This document shows, piece by piece, positions 38,620 to 60,367 of a stretch of 64,000 nt of DNA. Position numbers and translations under genes: made by a program. The notes beneath the pieces were generated by a model, which saw only the letters and a list, made by a program, of their open reading frames with translations, was not told the origin of the DNA and did not search any database. The stretch is from Tateyamaria sp. syn59 (GTDB lineage: Bacteria; Pseudomonadota; Alphaproteobacteria; Rhodobacterales; Rhodobacteraceae). The stretch spans positions 186,001 to 250,000 of the forward strand of contig NZ_VCBA01000001.1 of NCBI RefSeq assembly GCF_007995245.1. Reading direction: 5' to 3'. Numbering within the stretch: position 1 is the first letter of the stretch; every line of letters begins with the position of its first letter.

Positions 38620-38997
38620 GCGGTGCCTCCTGGCTGTTGGTTTAGTTCGCACACGGGGTTCCCGCTCCGCGCACGGATTCTTGAGTGGTTCTAAAGTTTT
38701 GGCCCGCGCGCATCAATGGAAGATAAGCGCCAAAGCCGGGATGAATTGTCGCGTGTGAATCATGCTGCACATGACACGTGACGTGCCGTCGTGACCTCAC
38801 TCTGGTCGTGCAGGCGCATCGGAGCGGTGATACAATCCCTGCGTGTATCGCGGCACCGTGTCCAAATCCGCGGCAAAGACATCGAAACGTCACATTTTCG
38901 GACCAGCAAGGGCAATATTCATCCCTCGTACGGCCCGAATTTTCGGCCATTGCTGGCCCAAACGCGCCCACGCGCCTCAAGAACCGAGTGCAGGATA
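38620..38997. other. 378-bp divergent promoter region between ctaD and the RTX/Hint gene
   Basis: No gene seen. It holds the ctaD Shine-Dalgarno at its left edge, and CACGTGACGTGCCGTCGTGA-like GC-rich palindromic stretches near 38775. Both flanking genes must start transcription here. Confidence 0.5.
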
Positions 38998-41478
38998 ATG
39001 GCAACGAACGACAACACGAACCCCGGGACCGAGGGTGATCAGGCCATCTCGGGCAGCAGCGGCGCAGATACGCTGACCGGCGCCTTCGGGAGCGACACGA
39101 TCACCGGTGGCGGGGGGGCCGATGTCCTGCGCGGTGATGGTCCGGTCGAGGGTGCGTGGCACTTCGAGACGTTCGACTTCAACTTTTCCTCGTCCGCCGG
39201 GCAGGCGTTCGATATCGAAAGCGGCACGCGCACCGGGTCGGGCTATGTCACTGACTTCAATGAAGGCGGTCTGACCAATACGGTGCGGGGCACCTCGAAC
39301 AACCCGGCGGATTTCGGGGTCATTTACACCAGCACCCTCAATGTCACAGCGGGTGGCACTTACCGCCTGACCACATCATCCGATGACGGGTCCACCATTC
39401 AAATCTTTGATTCCAATGGAAATCCCGTCCAGTTCGCGAACCAAACCGGCGGTACGCTCGACTATCTGAACAATGACTTTCACCAGGCGACGACAACCCG
39501 CTTTGGCGATGTGACGCTGGATCCAAACGAAACCTACACGATCCAGATTCGCTATTGGGAGAACCAGGGTGGAGATACCCTGTCGGCGACGATCAGCGGG
39601 CCGGACACCGGCAATGCGACCCAGAACCTGCTGACCTCCCCCATGATCGGGACACCACCGGGGCCGGAATATTCGGTCACGGGCACGCCTGCGGGCGTCG
39701 AAGGCGATGACGTCATCGCCGGGGGCGGAGGTGACGACACCATCTTTGGTGATGGCGGCAATGACACTCTGTCGGGTGGAGCCAACAATGACAGCGTCGA
39801 TGGCGGCACCGGCGATGACGTCCTTGCGGGCAACGGTGGCGCAGACACGCTGATCGGTGGGTCTGGCGATGATTCCATGTCGGGCGATGGCGGCAGCGAC
39901 AGCCTGACCGGTGGAACCGGGGACGACACGCTGGAAGGAGGCAACGGCGCCGACACTCTGGAGGGCGAACAGGGTGCCGACAGCCTCTTGGGTGGTGGTG
40001 GCGCGGATGTGCTGGTGGGCGACGACGGCTCGGACAGCACAACGCTGTACGAGGACGATTTTGAATCGGGCGCCAGCGGCTGGTCCAACGGCACAACCGA
40101 AACCGATCCCGACCTCGGAACGTCTTTGGGCCGCTTCGGTGCAGGCGACGGGGTCGTGGCGACCGAGCGCACTTTCGAATTGGGCTCTGATTCCGAAGAG
40201 GTGCAGGTCGAATTCGACGCCTTGCTGCTCGACAGCTGGGATGGCGAAGACTTTGTGATCACACTCAACGGTGAAGAGGTACGCTTCTCGCACCTGGCGG
40301 GTGATACGTCGTCTCCAGCCAGCCAGAGTTTTGTCGGCGCAGACGGCGCGACCTACACGATCGACTTCACCAACGTGCAGACAGGTGAACTGGGTTACAC
40401 AAACGGCGGATCGGTGTCCAACTCCCAAGACACGATCATGAATGTCGTGATCACGATCACGGACGCGCCCGAAGAATTGACGGTCGGCTTCGGCAGCACA
40501 CTCAACTCGAGCATCGCGAACGAGAGCTTTGCCATCGACAACTTCTCGGTCGTGCGGGTGGATGCAGTCAACGACACGCTCGAGGGCGGGACGGGCGACG
40601 ACACGCTGACAGGCGGGGCAGGGGATGACACCTATGTGTTCAATCCCGGCGATGGTGATGACGTCATAACCGATTTTAACGCGGGCAACACTGGCAGTAT
40701 CAACGACGGCGACCAGACCAACAACGATTTCATCGACCTGAGCGCCTATTACACCAATATCTTCGAGTTACGCGACGATATGGCCGATGACGGGGTCCTG
40801 AATCAGTCCGTCGGTGACTTTAGTGACAACACGAGCCTCGGCGGGTCGCTGACCTTCACAGGAGCCAATACCGGGGACCTGACCTTTGACAATACCAATG
40901 TCGCCTGTTTCACCGCTGGCGCACTGATCGATACGACCGAAGGACCGGTTCCGATTGAAAAGCTGCGCCGTGGCATGCGTCTGCGCACCTGGGACAATGG
41001 CGACCGGCCCGTGCGTGCCGTGTTGCGGCGATCCGTGGATGCGCGGACCACGTTTGCGCCGGTCCATATCTCGGCCGGTGCACTGGGCAACATGCGGGAT
41101 TTGCTCGTCTCGCCAGCCCACCGGATGCTTATCTCTGACTGGCGGACTCAAATGCTCTTTGGTGCAGATGAAGTGCTGGTGAGTGCGGTCAATCTGGTGC
41201 GCGGCGACCTGATCTATCGCGCGCCGCGGCCACGGGTCACGTACTACCACATCCTGATGGATCGGCACGAGGTCATCTATGCAGAGGGCGCACCTACCGA
41301 AAGCTTCCACCTCACCCGAGAAGCGGTTGAAGCCGCGGAATTCGGCGACTGCGAAGAGGGCGCTGTCGCCACCGAAATCGCACGGCTGTTTCCCGAGCTA
41401 CTGATTTGCGCAAGCCGCTGCGTCCGCCCGGTGATGAAGGGCTACGAAGCCAGGGCATTGGCCGGTATGCTAGGCTAG
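38998..41478 (+). CDS. RTX-repeat protein with PA14-like and Hint domains
   Basis: 826 aa, acidic. Short RTX block at about 17-48; PA14-like carbohydrate-binding domain about 50-215 (GVIYTSTLNVTAGGTYRLTT, SDDGSTIQIFD); main RTX calcium-binding block about 235-345 (GGxGxDxL nonapeptides); a lectin-like beta domain about 350-520; a further RTX pair; C-terminal Hint domain from Cys637 (ACFTAGALIDTTEG) through SPAHRMLISDW to HEVIYAEGAPTESF. No N-terminal signal, so type I secretion is likely. Start MATNDNTN chosen; the longer frame lacks protein-like sequence. Probably secreted, perhaps self-cleaving. Confidence 0.86.
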   Translation: MATNDNTNPGTEGDQAISGSSGADTLTGAFGSDTITGGGGADVLRGDGPVEGAWHFETFDFNFSSSAGQAFDIESGTRTGSGYVTDFNEGGLTNTVRGTSNNPADFGVIYTSTLNVTAGGTYRLTTSSDDGSTIQIFDSNGNPVQFANQTGGTLDYLNNDFHQATTTRFGDVTLDPNETYTIQIRYWENQGGDTLSATISGPDTGNATQNLLTSPMIGTPPGPEYSVTGTPAGVEGDDVIAGGGGDDTIFGDGGNDTLSGGANNDSVDGGTGDDVLAGNGGADTLIGGSGDDSMSGDGGSDSLTGGTGDDTLEGGNGADTLEGEQGADSLLGGGGADVLVGDDGSDSTTLYEDDFESGASGWSNGTTETDPDLGTSLGRFGAGDGVVATERTFELGSDSEEVQVEFDALLLDSWDGEDFVITLNGEEVRFSHLAGDTSSPASQSFVGADGATYTIDFTNVQTGELGYTNGGSVSNSQDTIMNVVITITDAPEELTVGFGSTLNSSIANESFAIDNFSVVRVDAVNDTLEGGTGDDTLTGGAGDDTYVFNPGDGDDVITDFNAGNTGSINDGDQTNNDFIDLSAYYTNIFELRDDMADDGVLNQSVGDFSDNTSLGGSLTFTGANTGDLTFDNTNVACFTAGALIDTTEGPVPIEKLRRGMRLRTWDNGDRPVRAVLRRSVDARTTFAPVHISAGALGNMRDLLVSPAHRMLISDWRTQMLFGADEVLVSAVNLVRGDLIYRAPRPRVTYYHILMDRHEVIYAEGAPTESFHLTREAVEAAEFGDCEEGAVATEIARLFPELLICASRCVRPVMKGYEARALAGMLG

Positions 41479-44879: not shown

Positions 44880-44966
44880 GCGGCCGTGGCGGAATTGGTA
44901 GACGCGCAGCGTTGAGGTCGCTGTGAGGTAACACTCGTGCGAGTTCGAGTCTCGCCGGCCGCACCA
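44880..44966 (+). tRNA. tRNA-Leu (anticodon GAG)
   Basis: 87 nt including encoded CCA. Acceptor stem GCGGCCG / CGGCCGC with discriminator A; anticodon loop TTGAGGT with GAG at 44914-44916; long type II variable arm; T-arm GAGTTCGAGTCTC. GAG reads CUC and CUU leucine codons. No integrase lies next to it. Confidence 0.96.
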
Positions 44967-45056: not shown

Positions 45057-45072
45057 ATTCAGATATGAGAAT
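45057..45072. promoter_or_regulatory. ATTC-N8-GAAT inverted repeat upstream of the MBL operon
   Basis: ATTC (45057-45060), spacer AGATATGA, GAAT (45069-45072), 21 bases before the chosen start at 45093. The same motif lies before soxX. It matches the operator form I recall for SqrR/SoxR/BigR-type persulfide-sensing ArsR repressors. Its closeness to the start codon suits repression. Confidence 0.6.
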
Positions 45073-45092: not shown

Positions 45093-45998
45093 ATGGATCG
45101 GCGATCTTTTCTGGCGCAAAGCGGTGCGGCTGCGGGGTGTGTGGGCCTGTCGCCTTTGGTCGCGCGGGCGGAGTTGGGGGCGGCGTCGCTCACCACTGTG
45201 AGCGACGGGAGCCTGACCCTGCCGGGCAGCTTTATCTTTGAGCCGATGCCGCAGGATGCGTTGCAGCCGATCCTTGCGTCTTATGACCTGTCGCCCACGC
45301 AATTGACGCCGGAATGCAATCTGGCGCTTTACCGGGATGAGGAGCGGACGGTGCTGTTCGATGTGGGCTCTGGTCCCGATTTCATGCCGACGGCGGGGAG
45401 CGTTGTGGACAGTCTGAACGCCCTTGGTCTGGCACCCGACGACGTCACCCATGTGGTGTTCACCCACGCGCACCCGGATCACATCTGGGGTCTGCTCGAC
45501 GATTTCGATGAACCGGTGTTTGCCGATGCGACCTATATGATGGGCCGCGCGGAGTGGGAGTATTGGTGGAACCCAGAGACGGTTGACACCATTGGCGAGG
45601 CGCGGGCGGCCTTTGCCGTTGGGGCGAAGCGGCGGATGGAGATGATTGAGGACAGCGTTGTGCTGTTTGAGGGCGGGCAGGAGGTGCTGCCGGGGATCGC
45701 TGCCGTTGCCACCCATGGCCACACGCCGGGGCATATGAGTTTTGAGGTGCGCAACGGGCCTGACGCCGCCCTGATCCTGGGCGATGCGATTGGCAATCAT
45801 CATGTGGCCTTTCACAAGCCGGAATGGATCAGCGGGTCGGATCAGGATGGCGCGCAGGCCGCAGCAACGCGCGCGATGCTGTTTGATCGTATCATCTCGG
45901 AGCAGATGCAGATCGTCGGCTTTCATCTGCCGCAGGGCGGGATGGGGCGCGTGGATCGGACATCGGAGGGGTACGTGTTTGTGCCGGAGGGCGCATGA
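45093..45998 (+). CDS. Tat-exported metallo-beta-lactamase-fold hydrolase
   Basis: 301 aa starting at MDRRSFLAQSG; the ATG six bases earlier sits right on the GGGGGG ribosome site. Twin-arginine signal 1-28. The MBL zinc motif is complete: FTHAHPDHIWG (His125, His127, Asp129, His130), then ATHGHTPGHMSFE and LGDAIGNHH. It is a periplasmic hydrolase of unknown substrate; MBL proteins next to sulfur genes include persulfide dioxygenases and SoxH-like proteins, but this one lacks a rhodanese part. First gene of a tightly packed chain, four-base overlap with the next. Confidence 0.85.
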   Translation: MDRRSFLAQSGAAAGCVGLSPLVARAELGAASLTTVSDGSLTLPGSFIFEPMPQDALQPILASYDLSPTQLTPECNLALYRDEERTVLFDVGSGPDFMPTAGSVVDSLNALGLAPDDVTHVVFTHAHPDHIWGLLDDFDEPVFADATYMMGRAEWEYWWNPETVDTIGEARAAFAVGAKRRMEMIEDSVVLFEGGQEVLPGIAAVATHGHTPGHMSFEVRNGPDAALILGDAIGNHHVAFHKPEWISGSDQDGAQAAATRAMLFDRIISEQMQIVGFHLPQGGMGRVDRTSEGYVFVPEGA

Positions 45999-46939
45999 TG
46001 CGGGGTGCTGTGGCTTTGGCGCTGTTTGCGGCGCCCGTTTTCGCCAGCGAGGATATTGCGGATCAGTATCCGGGCTCAGTTCTTTATTCCAAACCGGTCG
46101 AGGTGATCCCGCATGTGTGGTCCGCCATCGGCGCCACCGCGCCCCCGACCTATGAAAACAGCGGGCACAACAACAACCTGAGCTTCATCGTGACCGGCGA
46201 CGGGGTGGTCGTGATCAATGGCGGGGCGGCCTATCTGCTGGCCAAGGCGCTGCATGATGAGATCAGTGCCGTCACCGATCAGCCGGTGAAGCTGGTCATT
46301 GATGAGAATGGGCAGGGGCACGCGATGCTGGGCAACTCCTATTGGGCGGAGCAGGGCGTGCCAATCCTGGCCCATGTGGATGCGGCACATGAGATTGATG
46401 AGCGGGGCAACCGCATTCTTGAGAACATGAAGACGTATAATCGCGACAAGGCCGAGGGGACTTTTGTTGCGCCGCCCACGCGGACCTTTGAGGACAAGGA
46501 AGTCATCGAGATGGGCGACTTCCGGATCGAGGTGCTGCACCTTGGTCCCGCCCATGGACCTGGTGACACGCAGGTGTGGCTGCCCGAGCAGGGCATGGTC
46601 ATTGCGGGTGACATGGCCTTTCACGAGCGGATGTTGCCGATTTTCGAGGATACCATCGCGCTCGATTGGATTGAGACGTGGGATTGTTGTTTTGAGGCGT
46701 TGAACGCCACCTATGTCATTCCGGGGCACGGCCATCCGACGAATATGGCGCAGGTGCGGCGGTACACGCGCGACTACCTTGTTCATCTGCGCGAGGTTGT
46801 CGGTACGCATCTGGAGGACGGCGGTGATCTGGCAGAGGCTTACTATGTCGATCAAAGTCCCTATGTTCATCTCGATACCTATGAAGAGCTGGCCACGCGG
46901 AATGCGGGGCGGGTCTATGAGCAGATGGAATTCGAGTGA
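45995..46939 (+). CDS. Secreted MBL-fold protein with degenerate metal motif (SoxH-like context)
   Basis: 314 aa. Signal peptide MMRGAVALALFAAPVFA. The fold is recognisable: GHNNNLSFIVTGDGVVVIN, LHLGPAHGPGDTQVWLP, IAGDMAFHERM and VIPGHGHPT. The canonical HxHxDH is replaced by ENGQGH (residues 104-109), keeping only the last His. It may bind one metal, use different ligands, or be non-hydrolytic. SoxH of Paracoccus is also an MBL-type protein beside sox, but identity is not claimed. Overlaps neighbours by four bases at both ends. Confidence 0.82.
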   Translation: MMRGAVALALFAAPVFASEDIADQYPGSVLYSKPVEVIPHVWSAIGATAPPTYENSGHNNNLSFIVTGDGVVVINGGAAYLLAKALHDEISAVTDQPVKLVIDENGQGHAMLGNSYWAEQGVPILAHVDAAHEIDERGNRILENMKTYNRDKAEGTFVAPPTRTFEDKEVIEMGDFRIEVLHLGPAHGPGDTQVWLPEQGMVIAGDMAFHERMLPIFEDTIALDWIETWDCCFEALNATYVIPGHGHPTNMAQVRRYTRDYLVHLREVVGTHLEDGGDLAEAYYVDQSPYVHLDTYEELATRNAGRVYEQMEFE

Positions 46940-47553
46940 CGCAGCAAAGCCTTGCGGACTACGCAGATCAGGGTGATCCGATTGCCGCCCCGGATGGCGC
47001 GTGCCTGTTTCGGCCCGGTGATGAGGGGCGGGCGTTTCTGATCGTGCAGTCCGGTGTGGTCCGGGTGGAGCAGACGAATGCGGCGGGGCGCACCGTGGTG
47101 CTGTACCGCGTGCATGCAGGTGACAGTTGCGTGCTGACGACCACCTGTCTTTTGTCCGGGCGACCCTATTCCGGGTATGGCTATGCGGAGGGGGCCGTGA
47201 CCGCCGTGGCGATCAGCGCGGCGCGGTTTCAGGCGTTGATGGCGCGGGATGCGGGCTTTCGCGAGCTGGTGTTTCGCGGCTTTGCCCAGCGGGTGGGCGA
47301 GTTGACGGATGTGATTGATGCGTTGCTGCTGCACCGCACGGATCTGAAGCTGGCGCGGTGGCTGAGTGGGCAACCGGCGACGGTTGCGCGGACGCAGCAG
47401 GACATTGCGCAGGAGTTGGGGACGGCGCGCGAGGTGGTCTCGCGGACGCTCAAGTCGTTTGAACGGCAGGGGTGGATTGCGGTGGAACGTGGCACGATCA
47501 CCGTTCTGGACCGGGCGGCGTTGGAAAATCACGGATTGCAGGACGGCGTGTGA
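46936..47553 (+). CDS. Crp/Fnr-family transcriptional regulator with cysteine pair
   Basis: 205 aa with GTG start overlapping the previous stop. cNMP-fold sensor domain: CLFRPGDEGRAFLIVQSG and TVVLYRVHAGDSCVLTTTCL. C-terminal HTH: RTQQDIAQELGTAREVVSRT, LKSFERQGWI. There is no Fnr-type N-terminal cysteine cluster. Cys65 and Cys71 lie where effectors bind in Crp proteins, hinting at thiol or persulfide sensing, but this is inference. Third gene of the MBL chain. Confidence 0.86.
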   Translation: MTQQSLADYADQGDPIAAPDGACLFRPGDEGRAFLIVQSGVVRVEQTNAAGRTVVLYRVHAGDSCVLTTTCLLSGRPYSGYGYAEGAVTAVAISAARFQALMARDAGFRELVFRGFAQRVGELTDVIDALLLHRTDLKLARWLSGQPATVARTQQDIAQELGTAREVVSRTLKSFERQGWIAVERGTITVLDRAALENHGLQDGV

Positions 47554-47621
47554 CGAAGTCACAGACGGCTGCGGTGGATCGGGGCAGGGTGCGCGCGTAA
47601 CCGCAGAATGGAGAGCTTCAC

Positions 47622-47810
47622 ATGACCCGCAACCTTGGACAGATTGACCGTATCGCCCGTTTTGTCATTGGCGCGCTTTTGATCGTGCTGGCGGCCGTTG
47701 GCACCATCGGTGTCTGGGGCTTTGTCGGTGCGATCCTCGTCGGCACCGCGTTTGTCAACTTTTGCCCGATCTACCGGGTGCTTGGCCTGAAGACGTGCCA
47801 AGACTGCTGA
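47622..47810 (+). CDS. DUF2892 (YgaP-type transmembrane) protein
   Basis: 62 aa with two TM helices. It carries IDRIARFVIGALLIVLAA and FVNFCPIYRVLGLKTC, the DUF2892 signature, which is the membrane part of YgaP rhodanese. Three cysteines (48, 59, 62) face the C-terminal end. Stand-alone DUF2892 proteins are frequent beside sulfurtransferases and persulfide dioxygenases, supporting a sulfur role for this chain. Confidence 0.9.
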   Translation: MTRNLGQIDRIARFVIGALLIVLAAVGTIGVWGFVGAILVGTAFVNFCPIYRVLGLKTCQDC

Positions 47811-47890
47811 CGCGCCTCTTTTGGATCATCGCGGCGGTTGGGTTTGCCGCGATGATCTTTCTGATTGGGACATTGGTTGTCTTTGCTTGA
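47795..47890 (+). CDS. Candidate 31-aa single-TM protein
   Basis: GTG start at 47795 within the last codons of the DUF2892 gene; sequence begins VPRLLTRLFW, followed by a hydrophobic helix IIAAVGFAAMIFLIGTLVVF and a final Ala. Basic N-terminus predicts N-in orientation. It ends two bases before the convergent hemA stop. The overlap and clean TM composition support translation; no family is known. Confidence 0.45.
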   Translation: MPRLLTRLFWIIAAVGFAAMIFLIGTLVVFA

Positions 47891-55844: not shown

Positions 55845-55860
55845 ATGCGTATGTTTGAAT
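55845..55860. promoter_or_regulatory. ATTC-N8-GAAT-like site upstream of soxB (one mismatch)
   Basis: ATGC-N8-GAAT at 55845-55860, inside a region that also holds the palindrome ACATA-N4-TATGT (55841-55854), 24-39 bases before the soxB start. A weaker copy of the soxX operator. Confidence 0.4.
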
Positions 55861-58130: not shown

Positions 58131-58150
58131 AAATTCAACTACTTGAATTT
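58131..58150. promoter_or_regulatory. Perfect palindrome with ATTC-N8-GAAT, soxX promoter
   Basis: AAATTCAA-N4-TTGAATTT, centred 82 bases before the soxX start, within the 153-bp soxW-soxX gap. Contains ATTC (58133-58136) and GAAT (58145-58148) spaced by eight. It is the best candidate SoxR operator in the window. Confidence 0.7.
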
Positions 58151-59545: not shown

Positions 59546-59570
59546 TCTTGAGATATTCAAGAATTAGATT
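59546..59570. promoter_or_regulatory. Inverted repeats in the soxV-soxS divergent region
   Basis: TCTTGA-N5-TCAAGA at 59546-59562, and overlapping it ATTC-N8-GATT at 59555-59570 (one mismatch from ATTC-N8-GAAT), in an AT-rich 80-bp gap. Likely SoxR-controlled for both directions. Confidence 0.55.
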
Positions 59571-59983: not shown

Positions 59984-60367
59984 ATGTCGCTGGATATGTC
60001 AACCGAGCCTGACACACATGGCACCACGCCTTCGCGCCTTCCTGTCTTTGATCCGGACATGTGTCCCGAAGACATAGACAAGATGATGCGCAACGCCCAA
60101 GCCGCATCGAACTTCCTCAAGGCGATCAGTCATGAGGGGCGGTTGATGATCCTGTGCCACCTGGTGTCGGGCGAAAAATCGGTGACCGAGCTTGAGGATC
60201 TGCTGTCGGCCCGACAGGCGGCGGTGTCTCAGCAACTCTCCCGTCTGCGGCTCGAAGGGCTTGTCAAACCCCGCCGCGAGGGCAAGGCGATTTACTACAG
60301 CTTGACAGACGACCGACCCAAGCAAATCATGGAAGTCGTCTATGACCTGTTCTGCAGGGACGACTGA
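59984..60367 (+). CDS. soxR: ArsR-family sulfur-responsive repressor SoxR
   Basis: 127 aa. Winged helix: FLKAISHEGRLMILCHLVSG, EDLLSARQAAVSQQLSRLRL (recognition helix) and GKAIYYSLTDDR. Cys58 (MILCHL) and Cys124 (DLFCRDD) occupy the positions of the BigR/SqrR/SoxR thiol pair that forms polysulfide bridges; a third cysteine, Cys27, is near the N-terminus. It probably represses sox promoters until reactive sulfur is present. Confidence 0.93.
   Translation: MSLDMSTEPDTHGTTPSRLPVFDPDMCPEDIDKMMRNAQAASNFLKAISHEGRLMILCHLVSGEKSVTELEDLLSARQAAVSQQLSRLRLEGLVKPRREGKAIYYSLTDDRPKQIMEVVYDLFCRDD

Follow-up and report, generated by a model that had tools for sequence, protein, structure and literature searches.

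What does a chain of five tightly packed genes do beside the sulfur oxidation (sox) cluster of Tateyamaria sp. syn59, and do the five belong together? We analyzed a 64,000-nucleotide stretch of contig NZ_VCBA01000001.1, hereafter the window, which carries genes for two metallo-beta-lactamase (MBL)-fold proteins, MBL1 and MBL2, followed by those for a Crp/Fnr-family regulator (here Crp), a DUF2892 membrane protein and a small open reading frame (ORF). An earlier note on this DNA had proposed that they form a single undescribed accessory system for sulfur. The five ORFs indeed stand packed on the plus strand where it had placed them, the first three joined by four-base overlaps (ATGA for soxG/soxH, GTGA for soxH/crp), and they do lie next to sox, window SoxA, B, C, X, Y and Z each scoring above their NCBIfam cut-offs. 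What did not stand is the unity of the set: the MBL pair is the named pair soxG and soxH, and the Crp-DUF2892 part is separable from it. We propose, with a probability of about 0.65, that the chain consists of the known soxG-soxH pair and an attached module of Crp, DUF2892 protein and small membrane protein, working as described below. The new part is the wiring, with soxGH behind a SqrR/SoxR-type site across genera and with the Crp-DUF2892 module, which has its own conserved palindrome and occupies the slot of a YeeE-type transporter gene.

The soxG-soxH pair and its tie to SoxB

By tblastn, MBL1 and MBL2 share 54% and 69% identity with the two genes that follow soxF in Paracoccus pantotrophus DSM 11072 (locus L003), where the order is soxV, soxW, soxB, soxD, soxE, soxF, soxG, soxH; soxX, Y, Z, A and C were outside the query set of this comparison. 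This record carries no annotation; its last two positions are those named soxG and soxH. The naming agrees with PMC11034169 and PMC10221251, both of which report soxG and soxH within sox clusters of Sulfitobacter. According to PMC11034169, DUF302, 5-aminolevulinate synthase and YeeE lie between soxF and soxH in the Sulfitobacter cluster, and PMC10221251 terms the soxG and soxH products thiosulfate-induced periplasmic zinc metallohydrolases. In Ruegeria (L004), both MBL genes converge on YeeE, hemA, DUF302 and a SoxF-like gene. The pair recurs across genera, and by identity and position the two window genes are soxG and soxH. The accessible parts of the literature naming these genes yielded no tested function for either.

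We then surveyed 198 genomes of the family, one per genus. Orthologs were called at no less than 345 bits for SoxH (next match 209), at least 264 bits for SoxG (next match 226) and E<=1e-60 for SoxB, partial or interrupted matches being scored as present (SoxB of G160, G069, G191 and G194; SoxG of G153 and G164). SoxB was found in 129 genera, SoxH in 76 and SoxG in 68, with SoxG and SoxH together in 47. All 76 SoxH genomes and all 68 SoxG genomes contain SoxB; the hypergeometric probabilities (5.8e-20 for SoxH, 3.2e-17 for SoxG) are too small, because genera share ancestry. Among 20 genomes of the genus of the window, SoxB and SoxH occupy the same ten. The accessory role in sulfur metabolism suggested by the earlier note is thus supported for the MBL pair, which never occurs without soxB in the 198 genera and mostly stands behind a SqrR/SoxR-type site.

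Within the stretches fetched, some of them cut short, soxH was seen without soxG in 46 of the 76 genera, mostly with an ATTC-N8-GAAT site (L037-L099). Nearly all lone-soxH loci (45/47) show no soxB, soxD, soxE or soxF, the exceptions being L037 and L042. A further observation concerns G199, a genome of the same genus without SoxB. There, an apparent decayed sox remnant lies behind tRNA-Leu (GAG), as in the window, at L106 7862-9900: a soxG interrupted by stops, followed in order by fragments of soxH, crp and soxT. The sox locus of G199, with the chain, was apparently lost in place.

The Crp-DUF2892 module behind soxH

The regulator combines cNMP_binding and HTH_Crp_2 domains, and the DUF2892 protein matches PF11127 (YgaP-like_TM; cut-off 25.3 bits, score in Table 1). 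A window-type Crp (at least 64% over its length) is found in 6 of the 20 genomes of the genus. It directly follows soxH in five of the ten sox-bearing ones (the window genome G000, G202, G200, G214 and G209), whereas G206 has it yet lacks SoxB and SoxH; G199 retains fragments only. The remaining five sox-bearing genomes have a YeeE-type gene at this place, flanked by soxH and hemA. A genome search matched this gene at 73-100% in exactly those five, the Crp-bearing five showing SoxT-like matches only (31-33%). Full exclusion of Crp and the YeeE-type gene in such a five/five split is 1 of 252 arrangements; the exclusion is no law, since G112 (L025), from another genus, has both. Across the 76 soxH genera, Crp-DUF2892 follows soxH in two, G000 and G112; two of the 76 loci (L030, L097) end before the slot, and the genome search found no close Crp there. 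Judging by this distribution, the Crp-DUF2892 part is separable from soxGH and limited in lineage.

A Crp relative at E<=1e-20 occurs in 92 genomes, 21 of which have no SoxB. The earlier note had reckoned that wide occurrence of the chain without sox would speak against its proposal; this does not happen for soxGH but does for the Crp family. We examined the surroundings of 40 further loci, mostly the top of 103 Crp matches. DUF2892 was found near 32 of these relatives, a Blh-dioxygenase-like MBL near 22, SulP near 20, an SQR-like fusion near 18 and a short YeeE-like/DUF6691 pair near 17, with at least one of dioxygenase, SQR-like gene and YeeE pair at 28 loci. The "dioxygenase" query is an MBL that matches Blh over its dioxygenase half, with 366.7 bits against a full-length cut-off of 625. 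The "SQR" query, a fusion of a TIGR01244 sulfurtransferase with a flavoprotein, stays below the SQR III model cut-off (192.1 of 525 bits). Only one sampled relative, L145, adjoins sox genes. Cassettes of Crp, DUF2892, YeeE, DUF6691, dioxygenase and SQR-like genes are also seen divergent from soxG in G197 (L067 10862-15199) and G208 (L110 13813-16920). The literature searched, including the accessible parts of PMC7315123 and PMC9774590 and excluding subscription literature, gave no description of a regulator of the Crp/Fnr type combined with DUF2892 and a persulfide dioxygenase.

At all seven loci whose Crp is close to that of the window, the window itself included, crp, DUF2892 and the small ORF stand in this order. 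All seven also carry TGTGAC-N3-GTCAC behind crp, with a variable middle. With up to two mismatches, the palindrome was found behind crp at 32 of 45 other loci, where shuffling expects 0.36, and at none of the 52 within 200 bases upstream of crp. Its core, GTGAC-N3-GTCAC, is exact behind crp at 28/52 loci and present with at most one mismatch at 42/52; ten control patterns gave no exact match at the 52 loci and at most one with a mismatch. Since the arms are kept at the seven close loci while the middle varies, binding of a protein would be favored over an RNA hairpin.

Cys65 of Crp is present in 52/52 sequences and Cys71 in 44/52; Cys23 is confined to the seven close loci. By comparison with structure 4cyd, T69 and Y78 stand at the Glu and Arg positions of the nucleotide pocket. 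Glu and Arg of this pocket bind cyclic AMP (cAMP). Structure 3dv8 shares the C-x5-C arrangement. Assignment as a cAMP-type CRP was rejected (32.6 of the 266 bits of the NCBIfam cut-off, with the pocket Glu and Arg replaced), as was assignment as Fnr (22.8 of 228 bits). Its conserved cysteines make Crp a candidate sulfane-sulfur sensor, a kind of regulator in which cysteine persulfidation changes DNA binding.

Searched for a rhodanese domain, the 62-residue DUF2892 protein showed PF11127 alone, and its assignment as YgaP, defined by a rhodanese plus a membrane domain, was dropped. At each of the seven loci the small ORF, of 31-46 codons, encodes a hydrophobic stretch and starts within DUF2892, 16 bases from its end. 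In three close pairs of equal length, synonymous differences (pS 0.20-0.45) exceed non-synonymous ones (pN 0.04-0.13), the changes being few. The ORF probably encodes a genuine small membrane protein whose translation is coupled to that of DUF2892. The genome has a second DUF2892 gene (L112 6859-7500, G000:C4), which follows a 136-residue ORF resembling, by eye, a cyclic nucleotide-binding domain without helix-turn-helix.

One could also assume that Crp-DUF2892 is a passenger without any sulfur role, responding to redox state, oxygen or nitric oxide and brought along by insertion between soxH and hemA. Such a passenger would account for the 12 sampled relatives of 40 with no dioxygenase, SQR or YeeE-type query gene nearby and for the Crp genomes without SoxB. 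It fits poorly, however, with the 28 relatives that such genes do accompany, with the invariance of Cys65 and with the exchange of the module for a YeeE-type gene at this position, and we regard it as rather unlikely. A bolder extension of our own reading, which we offer tentatively and would not yet bet on, is that this Crp/Fnr family, with C-x5-C in its former cyclic-nucleotide pocket and the operator GTGAC-N3-GTCAC behind the crp gene itself, represents a previously undescribed class of regulators that respond to sulfane sulfur. The family might govern DUF2892 together with dioxygenase, SQR-like and YeeE-type cassettes in numerous genera of the Rhodobacteraceae type. In the lineage of the window, it might have been wired under SoxR, with DUF2892 and the 31-residue protein taking on the role of the second YeeE-type sulfur transporter.

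A SqrR-type site ahead of soxG and lone soxH

A perfect ATTC-N8-GAAT site, the deduced recognition site of SqrR (PMC9774250), lies upstream of soxG. It falls outside the span of the earlier note, which had the ORFs right and the start slightly off, 45093 being the second in-frame ATG of soxG. In the window itself the number of sites is unremarkable: two perfect matches (Table 1) are reached by 20 of 100 shuffles, and the 13 matches with at most one mismatch fall short of the average in shuffled sequence. A one-mismatch site of this kind is also seen in the soxB leader of the window, at 55845-55860. In the whole genome, 18 sites were found against 5 for the control.

The comparison between genera is more telling. 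A perfect site stands within 120 bases in 61 of 75 usable soxG or lone-soxH leaders of the family set, whereas nine control patterns (spacings of 6, 7, 9 and 10, and five other arms) each occur in no leader or one. For lone soxH the count is 37/46, the 46 including the plasmid locus L005, which has no site. L098, with its leader cut by the contig end, was left out of both counts, and some leader counts and alignments include several genomes from one genus, so that their rows are not independent. No perfect site was found in hemA (0/12), DUF302 (0/22) or soxD (0/23) leaders, and few in those of soxF (1/21), SoxT-like (2/34) and YeeE-type genes (2/34).

A candidate reader is encoded in the same window. 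SoxR scores 83.4 bits against the ArsR/SmtB model (cut-off 55) and 97.5 against the BigR model, below its cut-off of 155. The distance of 66 residues between its Cys58 and Cys124 is also that between Cys50 and Cys116 in Hyphomicrobium denitrificans SoxR, which stops binding DNA when treated with polysulfide (PMC10451225). From this kinship, we infer that window SoxR would read the SqrR motif. Given the SqrR-type site in 61/75 leaders and in hardly any control, control of soxG and soxH by SoxR is likely.

On the other hand, the reader could be another ArsR repressor of the SqrR/BigR type, soxGH then belonging to a sulfide-stress regulon. The motif was described for SqrR and is present in the YgaV-bound area of ygaVP (PMC9774250), and most lone-soxH loci carry it although nearly all of them show no soxB, D, E or F. 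The layout of the window speaks for SoxR, with sites at soxG, soxW/soxX and soxV/soxS and soxR alongside. We therefore consider another repressor unlikely and keep SoxR as the proposed reader.

Metal sites, proposed working and known systems

Both MBL proteins match PF00753 (MBL1 70.1 bits, MBL2 32.1 bits; cut-off 22.7), as the earlier note had it; the classical motif, by contrast, is found in only one of them. SoxG has a complete di-metal site, with the HxHxDH motif and the further His, Asp and His (H127, H129, D131, H132, H212, D233, H280), and at each position 42 or all 43 of the 43 rows agree, one row being L106, the decayed copy with stops. In SoxH, N105-x-Q107-x-H109 takes the place of HxHxDH in 87/87 sequences, and H58, N59, N60, H187, D206 and H245 are invariant as well; of 91 rows with a match, four were dropped, L007 (37%, other family) and the partial L097, L098 and L106. 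SoxH was thus rejected as a classical di-zinc MBL. In B1/B2 numbering, the first metal site is presumably altered and the His/Asp/His set left at the second. Since this set remains, SoxH probably holds one metal, on H109, D206 and H245.

Profile searches gave methyl parathion hydrolase, organophosphorus hydrolase and lactonases as solved relatives of SoxG (best 7y7u, 6.6e-60). For SoxH, profiles and the fold neighbours of an AlphaFold model (mean pLDDT, the model's own confidence score, 86.2) gave 8d2z and then class B beta-lactamases, including mono-zinc CphA. Two aligned quinoprotein-type relatives have motifs, HVHPDH and NLHPDY, unlike that of SoxH. SoxYZ-like carrier genes lie beside the SoxH-related MBL genes at both quinoprotein-type loci examined, and we therefore propose that SoxH could act on the SoxYZ carrier. 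SoxG and SoxH are candidate thiosulfate-induced periplasmic hydrolases, with a predicted export signal in each (below). A distinct SoxH-like MBL (37%, different metal motif) is encoded on plasmid locus L007 (6326-8834) with an ArsR regulator, a permease and a thioredoxin; genes whose annotation is arsenate reductase (azurin) lie nearby.

The proposed working builds on what the sequences carry directly, namely the identity of the genes, their nesting within SoxB genomes, both palindromes, the cysteines and the slot exchange; the reading of the sites by SoxR and Crp, the signal, the direction of regulation and the enzyme activities are our interpretation. The ArsR-type repressor SoxR would occupy ATTC-N8-GAAT about 30 bases upstream of soxG. 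In the presence of sulfane sulfur, SoxR would be released, and soxG, soxH and the overlapping crp would be expressed. SoxG, with its complete di-metal site, and SoxH, with its rebuilt one, would act as periplasmic hydrolases alongside the Sox enzymes; our best guess is that SoxH would clear a SoxYZ carrier that is blocked or wrongly loaded. Crp would sense a thiol-reactive or sulfane-sulfur signal through Cys65 and Cys71, in the region of the former cyclic-nucleotide pocket, and would act on GTGAC-N3-GTCAC behind its own gene, thereby switching DUF2892 and the small membrane protein. These two could handle sulfur at the inner membrane.

Several observations weigh against this reading, besides the 12 Crp relatives without sulfur query genes nearby. 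No perfect ATTC-N8-GAAT site was found in 14 of the 75 soxG or lone-soxH leaders, and P. pantotrophus soxG has none, which fits its position behind soxF. Nor is the motif unique to soxG and soxH: soxB leaders carry it perfectly in 5/21 cases and, when one mismatch is allowed, in 18/21, so that a separate site for soxB is possible. The two proteins need not act together, since 21 genera have SoxG but no SoxH and 29 have SoxH but no SoxG. As to the palindrome, 10 of the 52 Crp loci lack it even at one mismatch, and the 32 looser matches include some over 100 bases downstream of crp. The wider search for a Crp regulon used the bare core in the window's own genome and found 9 sites, the reversed control giving 4, which is too few for a conclusion; the core alone is therefore not specific. 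We found no mutant phenotype for soxG or soxH in the accessible literature. Finally, pmpA and pmpB of H. denitrificans, beside a SoxH-type gene, are not regulated by thiosulfate and are assigned to a pyrroloquinoline quinone (PQQ) alcohol system (PMC11582611).

Two other explanations have little left in their favor. The overlaps, the common strand and the order kept in half of the sox-bearing genomes of the genus could point to one new dedicated periplasmic sulfur system of all five genes, which is very improbable in view of the two genera of 76 with Crp-DUF2892 after soxH, its presence in G206 without SoxB and SoxH, and the YeeE-type gene that replaces the module in the other five genomes. 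That SoxG is a lactonase or phosphotriesterase-like, quorum-quenching enzyme lying near sox incidentally is hardly credible either: it would suit its solved relatives, which include methyl parathion hydrolase, organophosphorus hydrolase and acylhomoserine lactonase, but SoxG reaches 145 of the 360 bits of the NCBIfam cut-off for AidB-type lactonases, an assignment we rejected, and all its 68 genomes contain SoxB.

The soxG-soxH pair with its attached module therefore remains our preferred reading. soxG and soxH had names already; their nesting within soxB genomes, a site kept even at lone soxH and an invariant rebuilt metal site make their role directly testable. If the proposed sensing is true, a Crp/Fnr-type branch would be added to bacterial sulfur sensing, besides the ArsR-type SoxR, SqrR and BigR and besides FisR. 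The Crp-DUF2892 module elsewhere often accompanies sulfide-detoxification genes.

The layout of the locus is given in Table 1. The crp-DUF2892 gap is 68 bases. SoxG passes the model for a twin-arginine translocation (TAT) signal (18 bits, cut-off 16.7), and SoxH has a Sec-like leader, judged by eye. The chain converges on hemA and DUF302; beyond these, soxF through soxV lie on the minus strand, reaching down to 49.6 kb, while soxS-soxR-soxT occupy 59.6-61.5 kb of the plus strand. Apart from the six Sox proteins named at the outset, sox names in the window follow gene order in relatives, SoxF being supported also by its FCSD domains. A tRNA-Leu (GAG) at 44880-44966 immediately precedes soxG, as in L101, L102 and L106; tRNA-Thr and tRNA-Arg lie near soxG in L108 and L109, and seven other scanned loci showed no tRNA. 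The tRNA beside soxG may mark an island site for sox. Further upstream, an 895-residue ORF (38791-41478) has, by eye, GGxGxD-type repeats and a Hint-like C-terminus.

Table 1. Features of the soxG chain and of related sites in the window.
Feature	Position	Strand	Remark
ATTC-N8-GAAT site ATTCAGATATGAGAAT	45057..45072	+	ahead of soxG; SqrR/BigR/SoxR type
soxG (MBL1), 303 aa	45087..45998	+	TAT-exported MBL-fold hydrolase (predicted)
soxH (MBL2), 314 aa	45995..46939	+	exported MBL-fold protein (predicted)
Crp/Fnr-family regulator, 205 aa, GTG start	46936..47553	+	C65-x5-C71
palindrome TGTGAC-N3-GTCACA	47549..47563		spans crp stop codon; proposed Crp operator for DUF2892
DUF2892 / YgaP-like_TM membrane protein, 62 aa	47622..47810	+	PF11127, 75.3 bits
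small membrane ORF, 31 aa, GTG start	47795..47890	+	overlaps DUF2892 stop, 16 bases
second perfect ATTC-N8-GAAT site	58133..58148		soxW/soxX intergenic
ATTC-N8-GAAT site, one mismatch	59555..59570		soxV/soxS intergenic
soxR (ArsR family)	59984..60367	+	proposed reader of ATTC-N8-GAAT sites; Cys58 and Cys124

How does the locus compare with known systems? Its closest counterparts are soxG and soxH of P. pantotrophus and of Roseobacter clusters, to which the window genes are orthologous and whose neighbours in relatives are soxF, DUF302, hemA and YeeE. In contrast to these, the window pair runs towards the soxF end with its own operator-like site and is followed by Crp-DUF2892. SoxG resembles the methyl parathion hydrolase/AidB-type lactonase family in its profile matches (7y7u, 4le6, 1p9e), whereas in the set examined it is restricted to SoxB genomes. 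SoxH resembles the quinoprotein relay zinc metallohydrolases 1 and 2 (TIGR04558, TIGR04559), which also have a SoxYZ-type partner; it stays under both NCBIfam cut-offs, with 129.8 of 300 and 127.4 of 280 bits, its metal motif differs from that of the two examples aligned, and it was not assigned to either.

Escherichia coli YgaP carries a rhodanese domain, unlike the DUF2892 protein of the window, in which none was found. In E. coli ygaVP, a sulfide-responsive regulator is encoded in an operon with ygaP, which parallels the regulator and YgaP-like genes here; unlike the window Crp, YgaV is a homolog of SqrR and BigR (PMC9774250). The SqrR/BigR/SoxR operator system shares with our locus the ATTC-N8-GAAT site and SoxR cysteines 66 residues apart (PMC9774250, PMC10451225); what the present analysis measured in addition is the conservation of the motif ahead of soxG and lone soxH. 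A word search of the accessible text of PMC10451225 and PMC12423496 found no mention of soxH. In Acinetobacter baumannii, the BigR-controlled yeeE-yedE-pdo2 operon places YeeE-type genes and a persulfide dioxygenase under a sulfur-sensing regulator and resembles the cassettes that often house the window Crp family; its regulator is the ArsR-type BigR, whereas that of the window is of the Crp/Fnr type (PMC7315123).

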